NCBI GenBank assembly: GCA_029011315.1
Contig: JAQXLA010000010.1
Coordinates: 16,253 to 80,252 of the forward strand
Direction: 5' to 3'
Source of the DNA: Desulfovibrionaceae bacterium
Lineage (GTDB): Bacteria > Desulfobacterota > Desulfovibrionia > Desulfovibrionales > Desulfovibrionaceae
DNA: 64,000 bases
Shown here piece after piece: positions 18,348 to 25,693 of this stretch (position 1 is its first letter; every line of letters starts with the position of its first letter). The position numbers and the translations under genes are program-made. The notes under the pieces are model-generated. The model was not told the DNA's origin, made no database searches, and worked only from the letters and a program-made list of their open reading frames with translations.

Positions 18348-18677
18348 CTATTCTCTATCCTGATTCAATTCTGCTTTGAATTTTCTCGAAATGCGAAATG
18401 CCAGTACAGCATGCGTGCCAAGAACAATATCCTCACCTGTTTGGGGATTGCGCCCGCGCCGATCCCGCTTCATGAAGGTTTCAAACTTTCCAAAACCGCT
18501 CAGCAGAAGCTCCTGATCGTTTTTCAACGACTCTCGCATCAGAGCCAGAGTCATATCCAGCAGTTTCTTAGCCTTTTGCTGACGAAGAGTCTGAGAGCGT
18601 TCACAAATGGATCGGGCAATCCCGGCTTTTGTCACCGTATTGTTCATGTTCAGGCTCCTAAAATCTATCAATCCCAT
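18348..18677 (-). CDS. ihfA: integration host factor / HU family DNA-binding protein (IHF alpha-like)
   Basis: ELLLSGFGKFETFMKRDRRGRNPQTGEDIVLGTHAVLAFRISRKFKAELN. Confidence 0.85.
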   Translation of the reverse strand: MGLIDFRSLNMNNTVTKAGIARSICERSQTLRQQKAKKLLDMTLALMRESLKNDQELLLSGFGKFETFMKRDRRGRNPQTGEDIVLGTHAVLAFRISRKFKAELNQDRE

Positions 18678-19942
18678 TCCCGCTTATCTTCAATCACCCG
18701 ATACTGGGGAGGAAGCTCTCCGGGAGAAAGGATCTTCAATTCAGGTCTCAATTTGATGCGTTCACGGAACAGGTGCAGCAATTCATCCTGCTGATGAAAA
18801 TTGCTGGCTTCAATATACAGAGTCATTTCGTCAATGCCACCAGGGTTGCTGACTTCAATCTGCCACCGCTTGATTTCCTCAAACCGGGCCATGACCTGCT
18901 CAACCTGATGGGGATACACAAACATGCCCTTGATGCGCGCCGTCGTGTCAACACGTCCTACAATACTCCCAAGACGCGGACTCGTCCTGCCACAGGGACA
19001 GGGACTGCGATCTATATAGGAAAGATCTCCTGTCGCCAGACGAATCAGCGGATAGGTTTTGTTGAACGCTGTAACGACAATTTCTCCGACTTCGCCGTCC
19101 TTCAGGGGAATGCCCGTATCCGGATGACAGATTTCCACATAGCAGCGATTGGAAATATGCAGACCGTTCTTATGGAAACATTCATAGCCGATGCATCCGA
19201 CATCTGCCGTGCCATATGCCTGGCGCAAAATGATGTCTAATTTCTTTTCCAGCTGGTTGCGCATCTTTTCAGACAGCCGTTCTCCCGTGACGAAAGCGAC
19301 TTCCTGAAACAAATCCTTGCGGAGGTTAATGCCTTTTTCTTCTGCTTTCTGCGCCAGATGCATCAAATAGCTTGCTGTACCGACATATCCGGACACCCGC
19401 AGTTTCTGCATAATGTCCAGCTGCGTTCCAGCATCTGTCGGGCCGGCAGGAATCGAAGTGCATCCAAGATTCCGAAGCGGTTCTTCAAACATCAGGCCTG
19501 CAGGTGACAAATGATAATTGAAAGTTACCTGTACGACATCTCCGGGCCGAAATCCGACAGAGTAAAAAGCCTCAGTATATCCCCAGTAGTCATCAGAACG
19601 ATCTTCAGGATCGAAGATAGGACCGGGAGAAAGAAAAATCCGCTTTAGATCGCCGATATCCTTGGTCAGAAGTCCGCCCAAACGCGGCCCCATGCCCTGC
19701 AGATAAATCAGCTCTTTTTTCTTCAAGATCGGAATATGCTTGATATCCGAAAGCGTTTTAAATTTTTCGACATTGAACTGCGCTCTGTCGAACCGTTTCT
19801 TCACATCTTCAGAATAACGGTACGCATAAGACAGCAACTCTTTCATCTGTATAAGATTGTGCTGTCTGCGTTCGCTTTCGTCAAGAACCTCTCGCCTATT
19901 ATAGATGCCTTCCGTGCGATCCTTACGCGTCATAAACCGCAC
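18668..19942 (-). CDS. phenylacetate-CoA ligase family (AMP-forming) protein
   Basis: AYGTADVGCIGYECF, YPLIRLATGDLSYIDRSPCPCGRTSPRLGSIVGRVDTTARIKGMFVYPHQVEQVM. Confidence 0.9.
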   Translation of the reverse strand: MRFMTRKDRTEGIYNRREVLDESERRQHNLIQMKELLSYAYRYSEDVKKRFDRAQFNVEKFKTLSDIKHIPILKKKELIYLQGMGPRLGGLLTKDIGDLKRIFLSPGPIFDPEDRSDDYWGYTEAFYSVGFRPGDVVQVTFNYHLSPAGLMFEEPLRNLGCTSIPAGPTDAGTQLDIMQKLRVSGYVGTASYLMHLAQKAEEKGINLRKDLFQEVAFVTGERLSEKMRNQLEKKLDIILRQAYGTADVGCIGYECFHKNGLHISNRCYVEICHPDTGIPLKDGEVGEIVVTAFNKTYPLIRLATGDLSYIDRSPCPCGRTSPRLGSIVGRVDTTARIKGMFVYPHQVEQVMARFEEIKRWQIEVSNPGGIDEMTLYIEASNFHQQDELLHLFRERIKLRPELKILSPGELPPQYRVIEDKREWD

Positions 19943-20063: not shown

Positions 20064-20333
20064 TCACACCAGCTCGCCGAAAAGACACACTCTTTTCTGC
20101 AATTCCCGAACGATCAGATCTTCATAATTATTGGCAGGGATGATGGCATCACGGCTTTGTGCGCGCAGAAACTGCTCAATTTGCTGAGTTTCTCTCCAGA
20201 AATCCAGCAATTCTTCGTTTCCGAGTCCCTGGATCCGCTCTTCAAAGGAAAAATTCTCTTCAGAAATGCGTTGTGCCATATCTCGTACTTTCCTCCCGAC
20301 GAAATCTGCCGCAAGGGCCGGATGCCTGTGCAT
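20064..20333 (-). CDS. hypothetical protein (start may be internal at MAQRISEENF)
   Basis: 89-aa ORF directly downstream of infB on the same strand; no family recognised. Confidence 0.55.
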   Translation of the reverse strand: MHRHPALAADFVGRKVRDMAQRISEENFSFEERIQGLGNEELLDFWRETQQIEQFLRAQSRDAIIPANNYEDLIVRELQKRVCLFGELV

Positions 20334-20347
20334 CCGGCCAATAAAGA

Positions 20348-23300
20348 CTAAAGTGTCGCCGCCTCTTCAATGACTTCAAAGGCTTCGATGACATCTCCGT
20401 CCTTGATATCGTTGAAATTCTCCAGGCAGATACCGCATTCATATCCCTTCAGGACTTCTCTCACATCATCCTTAAAGCGACGCAAAGACGCAATCTTACC
20501 TGTATAAACAACGACACCGTCGCGGACAAGACGAGCTCCGGCAGTACGGGTGATCTTGCCATCCGTAACGAGACTGCCGGCAATGGCTCCGACTTTCGGC
20601 ACGCTGATGACCTTGCGCACTTCCGCCTGTCCCAAAGCCTGCTCTCGGCTGACAGGAGCAAGAAGCCCCGCCATAGCACTTTTAATCTCATCTACGAGCT
20701 TGTAAATAATATCATAGAATCGAATATCAATACTTTCATGCTCAGCCAAATCGCGAACCTTGGAAGCCGGACGAACATTGAAGCCGATCACAATTGCGTC
20801 AGAAGCCGAAGCCAGAAGAATATCTGATTCTGTGATTGCTCCTGTACCGCCATGAATGATATTGATCTGCACCTTGTCCGTGCTCAGCTTGCGCAACGCT
20901 TCCAAAATGGCTTCCAGAGATCCCTGCACGTCGGCCTTCACCACAAGATTCAGAGCCTTGGCCTCTTCATCATCAGCTCCGGAAGCAAGGAATGTCTCCA
21001 AAGTAACGCGGGTCGCCTTGGCCAGTTCTCTTTCTCTCTGTTTAATAGCACGGCTTTCCGCAATGCGGCGAGCCAGCTTTTCATCGGAGAGACAGATAAA
21101 CTCCTCGCCGGCTTCCGGAACTCCGTCAAAACCCTGCACCTCAACAGGAATGGAAGGTCCGGCTTCACGGGTCTTTCGTCCCTGATCATTAAACATGGCG
21201 CGCACGCGGCCGCTGAAAACACCGCAAACGAAATTATCTCCCTGATGCAGCGTACCTTCCTGAATCAGTACGGTAGCCACAGGTCCGCGTCCCTTATCCA
21301 GCTTTGCCTCCACGATGTGTCCTCGGGCAAGCTTGTCAGGATTGGCTTTCAGTTCCAGAATTTCAGCCTGCAATGCGAGAAGTTCAAGCAAATCATCAAG
21401 ACCTTCCCGTGTCTTCGCCGAAACCTTCGCTACGATGGTGTCTCCGCCCCATTCTTCGGGAACAAGACCGATTTCCGCCAGTTCTCTCAGCACTCTGTCC
21501 GGATTTGCCGTTGGCTTATCCATTTTATTAACGGCTACAAGAATCGGAACACCCGCAGCACGGGAATGGTTCACCGCTTCTCTTGTCTGCTCCATCACGC
21601 CGTCATCCGCCGCCACGACAAGAACCACCAGATCTGTCATCTGCGCGCCTCTGGCTCGCATGGCTGTGAATGCTTCATGACCGGGAGTATCCAGAAACAC
21701 GATTTCACCGCGCTTCGTCGTGACGTGATACGCGCCGATATGCTGCGTGATGCCGCCAGCTTCGCCGCTGGTCACATTGGTTTTGCGAATGGCGTCAAGC
21801 AGAGAAGTTTTGCCGTGGTCAACATGCCCCATGATCGTCACAACCGGAGGACGAAGGCGAAGCTGTTCAGGCTTATCCGGCACAGCATTTGCCAGGTACT
21901 CCTCTTCCATAAAGCCCACATGCTCTACTTCATATCCAAACTCTGACGCCACGACGGCTGCCGTATCGAAATCCAGAGACTTATTAATCGTCGCAATAAT
22001 TCCAAGATTGAACAGAACTTTGATAATTTCTCCGGCTTTCAATCCCATCTGATGCGCCATATCATTGACACGAATGGCCTCTTCCACACGAATTTTTCTC
22101 TTGGCGGCCTTAATGGGCTGCGTCGTAACCGGAGAAGCGGCATGAGCCGACGCCTTTGGACGACGCTTCACGCTGCGCATGCGCGGCATTTCTTCATCAT
22201 CTTCTCTGCGACGACCTCCAAAATCTTCAAAATCCGTATTTCTACGGACATTCTTGTTCCGCTTCTTCTTGCTCTGTCCCTCTCCGGCGAGTGCCGCGGG
22301 GATACCAGCAGGCTGACGGGATCCTCCGCCCGCAGAACGTTGAGGACGAGACGGACGGGAACTTTCCGCATCCCTGTCAAAGCCGTCTCTGCCTTCACCT
22401 CTGCCAGATCCCTGAAAGGAACGGCCGGAAGAACGTGAAGCATCCCGATTTCCTTCGGAACGGGAACGCCCCTCACCACGATTCATGCGTCCGGAATCGG
22501 CACCTTCTCCACGGCGATTATTGAAATCACGACGTTCACGAAAATCTTTTCCAGTGCCTCCCCCATCTCTGAAACGATTTTCCCGAGGATTCTCTCCCGC
22601 AGTAGCCTGAGGAGTCTGCGAGACAGTCTGAGTCTGAGGAGAAGGACGCGAGATAACTCGAACATGTGGGACGGCTGCCTCCTTGCGGGAACGGCGACGT
22701 TCCGCGCCGTCTTCCCTGGCTGATCCGGACCTAACAATCGCCGCTTCTTCCGGAGAAGCGGAAAAAACCGGCGTGCTGCGTTCATGCTTTTTCGCTTCCT
22801 CAGCTTTTCGGGCTTCTTCCCGAGCCGCTGCAGCTTCCTCAGCTTTTCTGGCCTCTTCAGCAAGGCGAGCGGCTTCTTCAGCCAGTCGTTTCTCTTCAGC
22901 AAGCCGAGCTTCTTCAGCGGCCTTAGCCGCTGCAATATCCTCAGGACGGCTGATGATTCTGGCAGGAGCTATCTCCATAGGAGCTCTGCGCGCACGTTTT
23001 CTCGCCGTATTTTTGGCCGCCTGGGCTTTGTCCGGCTTTGATTCTTCAGCAGTCGCCTCCGTTTCGGAGGACTTAGCGGAAACGTCTTCCGCTTCAACAG
23101 TGCCGTTTCCCTCAGCAGCTTTCGAAACAGACTGGCGACGACGGACTATCACTCCTGATCCACGGCGTTCCGTGCCAACAGATCCGACACCGTTCTTCTG
23201 AACTTCAGCCCGAAGACGTCCGGCCTCATTTCCGGTCAGACTGACGCTTTTGCGTACCTGAATATCCAGCCGACGTCCAACTTCGGCCAGCTCTTCGGCT

Positions 23301-23353
23301 TTAATGCCGAGTTCTCTGGCAAGATCTCCCGCTTTTATCTTTTCTTCACTCAT
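20348..23353 (-). CDS. infB: translation initiation factor IF-2
   Basis: 1001 aa; [45 protein letters not shown]; long charged N-terminal linker. Confidence 0.98.
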
Positions 23354-23580
23354 GCGTTTTTCTTCCTTCCCCCGCGATTCCGTCCAGACGGAGGACGGCG
23401 CCGCCGAAATTTTTCAAGACATTCTCCGCTTGCACAGACATAAAAACCTCTTCCCTGAGCCGTCTGTCCGGCATCGGATTCAAAGGACTCTCCGTCAGCT
23501 GACGGTACGAAACGGTGCAGTTCCCATTTCGGAAAATGCCGTCTGCATACGGCGCACATTCTCATCGGCACATGCTTCAC
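23350..23580 (-). CDS. YlxR family (DUF448) protein
   Basis: [19 protein letters not shown]...[19 protein letters not shown]; between nusA and infB. Confidence 0.88.
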
Positions 23581-24836
23581 TCTTCGGCATTCTCCGTATT
23601 CCCGGCAGGCCGATCCCGATACAGATTAATGGCCATGCGCAGTTCTTCGATTTTTTTCGCAGACAGCCCAAGTCTCTCACCAAGATCATCGTCCGAAGCC
23701 GCATCAATCCGATCCAGAGACGTATACCCAGCCTTTTCAAACATGTCCTCAGGAAGATTGACCACCTTCGCCGCCGAAGCAATAAAAGCATCAATCTTCG
23801 CATCAGATTCCTTGATAATATTGATCTTCATGCCAAGCAGCGTTGCAGCCAGGCGAGTATTCTGTCCGCGTACGCCAATGGCACCTGTCAGCTGGCTTTC
23901 AGGAACCACGACTTCAAGCTGAGTTTTGCCGTCTTCTTCGACCGTGCGGATACGAGAAACCACAGCAGGAGCGAGGGCGTTTCTGGCATAGACGGAAATA
24001 TCGGAACTCCATACGACGATATCAATGCGCTCTCCATGCAGCTCCTGCACAATATTCTGAATGCGGGATCCGCGTACGCCAACGCAGGAGCCAACAGCAT
24101 CGACATCTCTGTCTCTGGAAAAAACAGCCACTTTTGCACGGCGACCCGGATCTCTGGCAACATTAATAATCTGCACAATTCCGTCATCCACTTCGGGAAT
24201 CTCTCGTTTGAAAAGCGCAATCATATATTCACGTCCAGCCCGAGAAAGAACTATCTGAGGGCTGCGCCCGTCATTGCGTACCTCCTTGATGACTGCCTGA
24301 ATCCGCTGATCTCTGCCGAAATGCTCTCCGGGGATCTGTTCACTTTCCGGCAGAATTGCTTCCGCACGTCCGTTTAAATTGACAATGATATTCCGACGAT
24401 CCCGACGCTGCGGCACGCCGATAACGATTTCGCCGACGCGCTTGACATATTCATCATAAATGCTTTTCTGCTCAGCTTCGTGCATACGCTGAATAATAAC
24501 CTGCTTGGCAGATTGAGCGGCAATACGGCCGAGATCCTCAACTTTCAGAGGAAATCCCATTTCATCATTGAGCTGTACGCCAGGATCCAATTTCAGAGCC
24601 TGCTCCAGAGTGACTTCTCTGTCAGGATCCTGAACCGTTTCGACAACGACCTTGAACTGAAAAACCTTTATTTCTCCTGTATCGTCATCATACGTCACTT
24701 CAATATCTATGCGTTCGCCATATTTCCTCAGAACGGACATTTCCACGGCAGCCTCAAGAGTCTCAATGAGCGTCGCCTTATCGATTCCCCGATCTTTGCA
24801 GATTTGATCAATGGTTTTCTTCAATTCCAGATTCAT
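23577..24836 (-). CDS. nusA: transcription termination/antitermination factor NusA
   Basis: S1/KH arrangement; VGSCVGVRGSRIQNIVQELHGERIDIVVWS. Confidence 0.97.
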   Translation of the reverse strand: MNLELKKTIDQICKDRGIDKATLIETLEAAVEMSVLRKYGERIDIEVTYDDDTGEIKVFQFKVVVETVQDPDREVTLEQALKLDPGVQLNDEMGFPLKVEDLGRIAAQSAKQVIIQRMHEAEQKSIYDEYVKRVGEIVIGVPQRRDRRNIIVNLNGRAEAILPESEQIPGEHFGRDQRIQAVIKEVRNDGRSPQIVLSRAGREYMIALFKREIPEVDDGIVQIINVARDPGRRAKVAVFSRDRDVDAVGSCVGVRGSRIQNIVQELHGERIDIVVWSSDISVYARNALAPAVVSRIRTVEEDGKTQLEVVVPESQLTGAIGVRGQNTRLAATLLGMKINIIKESDAKIDAFIASAAKVVNLPEDMFEKAGYTSLDRIDAASDDDLGERLGLSAKKIEELRMAINLYRDRPAGNTENAEE

Positions 24837-25479
24837 GCTCTACCTCCGCCGGCTTTTCTTTAAGAGTATTGGCCTTCCGGCCTTTTTTCTGCTGAGATCC
24901 GTTCTTTTTTCCGGGTTCAGGGAAATGATGCACAAGCCTGGCACGCCGTACGTTTTCCCATGCCAGAGAAACTGTTTCTGGCTGCTCGGCAAGGCGATTT
25001 TCCTCAGCGATGCGCAGTATCAGGGATTCTCCGTCAAGCTTTTCCAAAATTCCCGTAAAATGTCTGCGCCCGTACCACGCATCAGGCGCTTGAAAAAGCG
25101 TTATATCAAGTTCCCGGCCAATATAGGAAGCAAGCTGATCCAAACGGAAAAACGTCCGCTCCAGTCCTGGCGAAGATACTTCCAGTGTCCATCTGGAACT
25201 GAACAGATCCTCCACTTCCAATGCCAGTCCAAGCATTCGCGACAGTTTTTCGCACTGTCCTATGCTGACACCGCCCTGAGATTCCGTCCCCTGCATGATG
25301 ATGCTATCTTCGGCAGGATCTTCATCTGCTTCAAGGGAAATATCGGGATGGGCATCAACAAAGAAACGGACTACCGGAACTCCCTGCCCGATAATTTCAA
25401 CTCCCCAGACCTTCAATCCTAACGACTCCGCAAGAGGTTCCGCGAGAGAGGTCAGCCGTGCGGCAAGCGATTCACTCAT
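24808..25479 (-). CDS. rimP: ribosome maturation factor RimP
   Basis: ESLGLKVWGVEI, GGVSIGQCEKLSRMLGLALE, YTLEVSSPGLERTF-like WTLEVSSPGLERTFF; upstream of nusA. Confidence 0.93.
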   Translation of the reverse strand: MSESLAARLTSLAEPLAESLGLKVWGVEIIGQGVPVVRFFVDAHPDISLEADEDPAEDSIIMQGTESQGGVSIGQCEKLSRMLGLALEVEDLFSSRWTLEVSSPGLERTFFRLDQLASYIGRELDITLFQAPDAWYGRRHFTGILEKLDGESLILRIAEENRLAEQPETVSLAWENVRRARLVHHFPEPGKKNGSQQKKGRKANTLKEKPAEVEHESGIEENH

Positions 25480-25537
25480 AGATCAACGAATCCGTCCGCA
25501 CTTCACGTGCGGCATTAATTTTATTTTTATTTCAGCA

Positions 25538-25565
25538 TAAAAAAAGGGGGCCTGAAAGGCCACCC
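25538..25565 (-). terminator. strong intrinsic terminator in the rimP-nusA leader
   Basis: Reverse strand GGGGTGGCC-TTTCA-GGCCCCC-TTTTTTT. Confidence 0.8.
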
Positions 25566-25622
25566 CAGCTAAGCCGTCTCATTACGGCTGAACAGGAGAA
25601 CAGATTCCAAGAATCTGTTTCA
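25539..25622 (-). ncRNA. candidate structured leader / attenuator or small RNA upstream of rimP-nusA-infB
   Basis: Reverse strand after promoter: CTGAA..AACAGATTC-TTG-GAATCTGTT..TTCAG, then GCCGT-AATGAG-ACGGC, then terminator hairpin and T7. Confidence 0.5.
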
Positions 25623-25627
25623 GGAAA

Positions 25628-25657
25628 AGAATAGGCTATTTTTATGGCATCTGTCAA
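25628..25657 (-). promoter_or_regulatory. sigma70-type promoter upstream of rimP-nusA leader
   Basis: Reverse strand TTGACA (25652-25657), 18-nt spacer, TATTCT (25628-25633). Confidence 0.7.
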
Positions 25658-25693
25658 GACTGCCGTCCAGACAGAAAAATTTATAGAGATGAA

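Follow-up and report, generated by a model that had tools for sequence, protein, structure and literature searches.

The leader in front of the rimP-nusA-ylxR-infB operon of a Desulfovibrionaceae bacterium carries an intrinsic terminator before the first gene, which raises the question of whether this terminator controls the operon, ends a small RNA of its own, or simply closes the gene upstream. We studied the locus in a 64,000-nucleotide stretch of DNA (the window) and in relatives, and we consider it fairly probable that the leader is a cis-acting transcription attenuator of rimP-nusA-ylxR-infB with two poised folds, for which NusA is the likeliest effector. The elements of the leader all lie on the minus strand between a zinc-ribbon/DUF3426 gene and rimP:

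26614-25730, minus strand: zinc-ribbon/DUF3426 gene upstream of the leader
25628..25657, minus strand: sigma-70-type promoter TTGACA-N18-TATTCT, matching the consensus at 10/12 positions (-35 TTGACA at 25657-25652, -10 TATTCT at 25633-25628)
25599..25619, minus strand: hairpin 1, AACAGATTC-TTG-GAATCTGTT, found by folding at the expected 5' end of the transcript (arms 25619-25611 and 25607-25599)
25595..25598, minus strand: CTCC, putative 5' strand of an antiterminator, at the position of the conserved CATCC(TG) of relatives
25572..25589, minus strand: hairpin 2, AGCCGT-AATGAG-ACGGCT, enclosed by the putative antiterminator helix (arms 25589-25584 and 25577-25572)
25563..25566, minus strand: GGGG, the contested segment (putative 3' strand of the antiterminator and lower part of the terminator 5' arm)
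25539..25566, minus strand: intrinsic terminator GGGGTGGCC-TTTCA-GGCCCCC-T7 (5' arm 25566-25558, GGCCCCC 25552-25546, T7 25545-25539)
25496..25512, minus strand: fourth hairpin, CCGCAC-GTGAA-GTGCGG, before rimP
24808..25479, minus strand: rimP, first gene of the operon, ATG at 25479 (Pfam RimP_N, 2.5e-15)
23577..24836, minus strand: nusA (Pfam NusA_N, 4.6e-35)
23350..23580, minus strand: ylxR (Pfam YlxR, 7.3e-15)
20348..23353, minus strand: infB, encoding IF-2 (Pfam IF-2, 1.9e-42)

Neither rbfA nor truB was seen directly downstream of infB. The gene is immediately followed by an 89-aa open reading frame (20064-20333) without a Pfam match and, beyond it, by one at 18668-19942 that by eye resembles a phenylacetate-CoA ligase.

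A search of 119 genomes of the family yielded RimP in 115, and the upstream region was read for 110 loci. An intrinsic terminator stands directly before rimP at 109 of these 110 loci, spread over 38 genera, a count guided by inspection rather than blind, as the pattern rules were tuned while the loci were read. Two types of leader can be distinguished. Type A (56 loci in 18 genera, including the window) is mostly without a tRNA gene and has the core CATCC(TG)-hairpin 2-GGGGTGGCC-loop-GGCC(T)CCC-T7. In type B (53 loci in 20 genera), most leaders have a tRNA-Gly(CCC) gene of the same orientation directly upstream together with a terminator of the form GTGGGCC...GGTCCAC or related, while three type-A genera (g10, g14 and g15) combine the tRNA with a type-A terminator.

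The near-consensus promoter that the preliminary description had placed ahead of rimP is borne out by these relatives. Its start is expected near 25621-25620, and 45 of the 56 type-A loci carry TTGACN in the corresponding region, -150 to -78 as counted from the terminator arm, where shuffles predict 2.9. A strict two-box scan was positive for 15 of the 56 leaders versus 3.9 expected, a low yield because many -10 boxes depart from the scan rule, and the -35 box alone is the clearer promoter signal.

Downstream of the promoter, hairpin 1, hairpin 2, the terminator and the fourth hairpin just before rimP are all present as first described, and the 85-nt leader (the predicted terminated RNA) folds at -34.3 kcal/mol compared to -21.7 +/- 3.0 for dinucleotide shuffles (z = -4.1; 0 of 200 shuffles as good), with z = -4.7 for a 143-nt leader. 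A hairpin at the site of hairpin 1, which is the place held by tRNA-Gly in relatives, is predicted in most type-A leaders with varying sequence and length. The CTGAA/TTCAG outer stem claimed for it is doubtful, and we set it aside because CTGAA (25623-25619) straddles the expected start.

Could the terminator belong to the upstream gene, with the other hairpins arising by chance? The hairpin that had been assigned to that gene as its own does exist at 25719-25696 with a perfect stem of 10 bp; it lacks a U-tract and was not flagged in the terminator scan, so that it is no canonical terminator and readthrough from the upstream gene is possible. This lends something to the idea of a plain end-of-gene terminator, but the promoter between the two genes, the synteny with rimP in 38 genera and the folding z-score of the 85-nt leader make it highly improbable.

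A second possibility, raised by the preliminary description for an RNA of about 85 nt, is a stand-alone sRNA (by our coordinates of about 80 nt) with rimP under another promoter. The leader has its own promoter and a strong terminator, and a stable terminated RNA may well exist. However, it always lies directly before rimP and adjoins that gene in relatives, whereas a trans-acting sRNA should be conserved independently of the downstream gene. It is also single-copy, as the only match of a type-A covariance model in that genome of the window lies at rimP; between terminator and rimP, no promoter was flagged by the scan, and the sequence of hairpin 1 is not conserved. A stand-alone role is thus disfavored, and we regard it as very unlikely. 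When the type-A model was searched against the order, 28 of 30 among the matches listed were at rimP-nusA, in families f1 and f5 (two from f5), and the other two (L165 and L168) were not at rimP. The match at L165 (genome G142 of family f4, about 1500-1540; 34 bits) has a strong hairpin, GGGGGGGCC...GGCCACCCC-T7, that is probably an ordinary terminator. Beyond the order, covariance model R1 gave weak matches with no detectable rimP or nusA among the matches listed. A DNA similarity search with the leader returned short, weak matches, some of which are rimP terminators of relatives, and a RimP query against genome contigs gave no match.

The main feature of the leader was missed by the preliminary description: CTCC (25598-25595) can pair with GGGG (25566-25563) around hairpin 2 as an antiterminator, in competition with the terminator. 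Most type-A leaders, when folded up to the terminator 5' arm, pair CAUCC(UG) with (C)GGGGUG around hairpin 2, and the probability that their terminator arm pairs upstream is 0.96, compared to 0.75 for shuffles. At 4 bp, the CTCC·GGGG helix of the window is shorter than the CAUCCUG·CGGGGUG of its relatives, and its arm-pairing probability of 0.59 falls short of the 0.75 of its own shuffles, so that the case for the antiterminator in the window rests on the relatives. There, with both strands anchored, 94.7% of 245 cells are standard pairs, a share that falls to 42-65% if the 3' strand is shifted by 1-3 columns. The two pairs closest to the loop show compensated variation (U-G, U-A and C-G; G-C, G-U, A-U, U-G and U-A), giving a covariation score that was reached by 13 of 500 shuffles, while the core five pairs, CAUCC/GGGUG, are nearly invariant and therefore uninformative for covariation.

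Type-B leaders have the same topology built from other sequences such as CCGCC/GGUGG, GCCUC/GAGGU or CCUCG/CGAG(U)GG. Across 38 genus representatives, binding is stronger between native strands than between swapped strands (p = 1.5e-4), a signal that comes largely from the contrast between the two types given the values of p = 0.07 for type A alone and p = 0.21 for type B. The leaders thus offer two mutually exclusive helices with one shared strand, kept in relatives, and the alignments point to compensatory changes in the antiterminator that are modest, including within subtypes. The terminator 5' arm is more conserved than the 3' arm (1.65 versus 1.12 bits per position), as one would anticipate for an arm that takes part in two helices or is recognized.

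When the window leader is folded stepwise, the antiterminator is the most stable fold up to nucleotide 25547. It is compatible with the upper terminator (GGCC/GGCC), and the lower terminator reclaims GGGG only once 25546-25545 are made. The predicted energy of the terminator minus that of the antiterminator has a median of -0.1 kcal/mol (interquartile range -0.9 to 0.8) across 49 type-A leaders, a near-equality that follows partly from sequence conservation. For the window, a leader truncated at the 3' arm and lacking hairpin 1 favors the antiterminator by 0.7, and the terminator is favored in the full 85-nt fold. By these rough energy models, the leader looks poised between two near-isoenergetic folds.

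We therefore propose the following sequence of events, with switching during transcription. RNA polymerase would start near 25621 and make hairpin 1, CTCC, hairpin 2 and GGGG in turn, whereupon CTCC would pair with GGGG around hairpin 2 as the antiterminator. Synthesis of GGCCCCC would then allow the upper terminator half to form alongside the antiterminator, while the lower half, adjoining the U-tract, would need the same GGGG. With the predicted stabilities of the two folds almost the same, the outcome, a released leader RNA of about 80 nt or readthrough into rimP, would hinge on pausing or on a bound factor.

NusA stimulates pausing and intrinsic termination, and much NusA would thus give more termination and little NusA readthrough, a physiological feedback by which the leader probably lets the cell meter its own NusA supply. 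Since NusA stimulates many terminators, such autoregulation need not use a special structure; Mondal et al. in 2016 are said to have reported no reliance on an antiterminator in B. subtilis, which differs from the conserved antiterminator found here. In our analysis, NusA feedback is the best guess for the effector because it has been proposed for rimP leaders (PMC2965389) and because NusA-stimulated termination in the leader before nusA is reported to autoregulate NusA in B. subtilis (PMC12288461, citing Mondal et al. 2016). In both cases leader termination before nusA would control the operon, with an effector that was demonstrated for B. subtilis and is suggested by analogy here.

Other signals or none might set the balance between the two folds, and these readings, NusA, cold or constitutive, cannot be told apart from sequence. 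In Desulfobacterota from outside the order, 24 of 30 sampled loci (L224-L253) have a terminator like AAAGTGGGC...GCCCAC-T6 directly before rimP, often with tRNA-Gly(CCC) upstream. The complementarity of the arm to upstream sequence is 0.59 there versus 0.50 shuffled, compared to 0.94 versus 0.66 in type A, which suggests that the terminator persists outside the order without a clear antiterminator. This would suit a constitutive attenuator, in which the terminator sets a fixed partial readthrough and the antiterminator tunes the ratio without any regulatory signal, and near-equal energies would yield just such an output. However, the complementarity of the antiterminator strand is kept by differing sequences across genera, and NusA regulates this operon in another phylum (PMC12288461); we consider a purely constitutive device unlikely.

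The anatomy of the leader would fit a cold-shock or RNA-chaperone effector as well as NusA. Cold or a CspA-type protein might weaken the terminator and raise NusA and IF2, for which the poised predicted folds would be suitable. In E. coli, where the tRNA gene metY and terminators t1 and t2 precede rimP, transcripts of the operon rise strongly on cold stress (PMC6511841), but this rise has been ascribed to higher promoter activity, and transcripts of the same operon also rise when NusA termination is reduced (PMC6511841). We give the cold-shock explanation little credence and retain feedback by NusA as the preferred reading.

How does the leader relate to known regulators? Naville and Gautheret named the rimP-leader in 2010; they described it as the commonest transcription attenuator, favored NusA as its effector, and saw neither a larger conserved element nor, outside some Gammaproteobacteria, an antiterminator (PMC2965389). 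Like members of that class, the window leader has a premature intrinsic terminator with a G-rich 5' arm and a C-rich 3' arm before rimP of rimP-nusA-infB, and the 59 nt between the end of T7 (25539) and the rimP ATG (25479), followed by rimP-nusA-ylxR-infB, lie within the 4-130 nt described for the class. The published stem GGGc(...)gCCC appears here as GGGGUGGCC...GGCC(U)CCC, which is a loose fit (GGGG-U-GGCC/GGCCCCC in the window), and GTGGGC...GCCCAC of other Desulfobacterota is nearer to it. What is new here, judging from the compared sequences, is an antiterminator that appears to be conserved across the order and would compete for the lower half of the terminator stem.

The Rfam model of the gammaproteobacterial rimP leader, RF01770, describes an element at the same position and with the same presumed role, which differs in holding two tandem terminator-like hairpins. 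The E. coli leader scores 102 bits with this model, whereas our leader locus was unmatched even at E 10 and below the 47-bit threshold, the best score in the window's genome being 28.9 bits at another place; Rfam scans of the leader at gathering and E-value thresholds likewise gave no meaningful match. The preliminary description did not recognize a known riboswitch, and RF01770 fails to detect the leader, but its kind is known: by position and terminator it is a lineage-specific version of the rimP-leader class. A literature search for a rimP leader in Desulfovibrio found no paper. We also considered a T-box riboswitch for GGGUGG, which resembles the T-box core, and T-box models had no match in the window or its relatives. 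In sister families UGG even pairs with the CCA end of a tRNA, as in a T-box, but the tRNA there is a cis-encoded one, which the window's leader lacks, and no specifier stem was recognized.

In these sister families (f2-f6; L193-L222), the same operon is preceded by tRNA-Gly(CCC) with the switch within a few bases. Most of the 24 leaders have a CCACUCC that pairs with GGAGUGG or GGGGUGG of the terminator arm and whose first three bases are the tRNA's own CCA. Changes such as CCAC-A-CCUC/GAGG-GUGG keep the pairing, native strands again do better than swapped ones (p = 0.023, 14 leaders), and family f5 has the tRNA plus a separate CATCC as in type A. In the window's genome, tRNA-Gly(CCC) lies away from rimP in a cluster with Gly and Cys tRNA genes (L256; G000:C6, 610-939), and in several type-A relatives it is likewise clustered with other tRNA-Gly genes and not before rimP. 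The simplest history suggested by this modest sample would be an old tRNA-terminator-rimP arrangement to which an antiterminator was added in the order and from which the tRNA was lost in the window's branch. It is possible, though on balance doubtful, that the Desulfovibrionales leader ancestrally contained tRNA-Gly(CCC), with CCA plus four bases as antiterminator, and that the window leader is a tRNA-less descendant that kept the switch.

If so, readthrough into rimP-nusA-infB would depend on folding or 3' maturation of a nascent tRNA, and tRNA processing would be linked to the supply of NusA and IF2. The tRNA-bearing leaders thereby raise the testable idea of a nascent tRNA's CCA end as part of a transcription switch. 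More broadly, the operon of NusA, a core transcription factor, is attenuated in distant phyla, and how a leader senses NusA is unsettled. The Desulfovibrionaceae offer a small leader, missed by the Rfam model, with two conserved folds of near-equal predicted stability in many genera, and simple mutations combined with in vitro transcription can therefore test whether NusA tips the balance between them.
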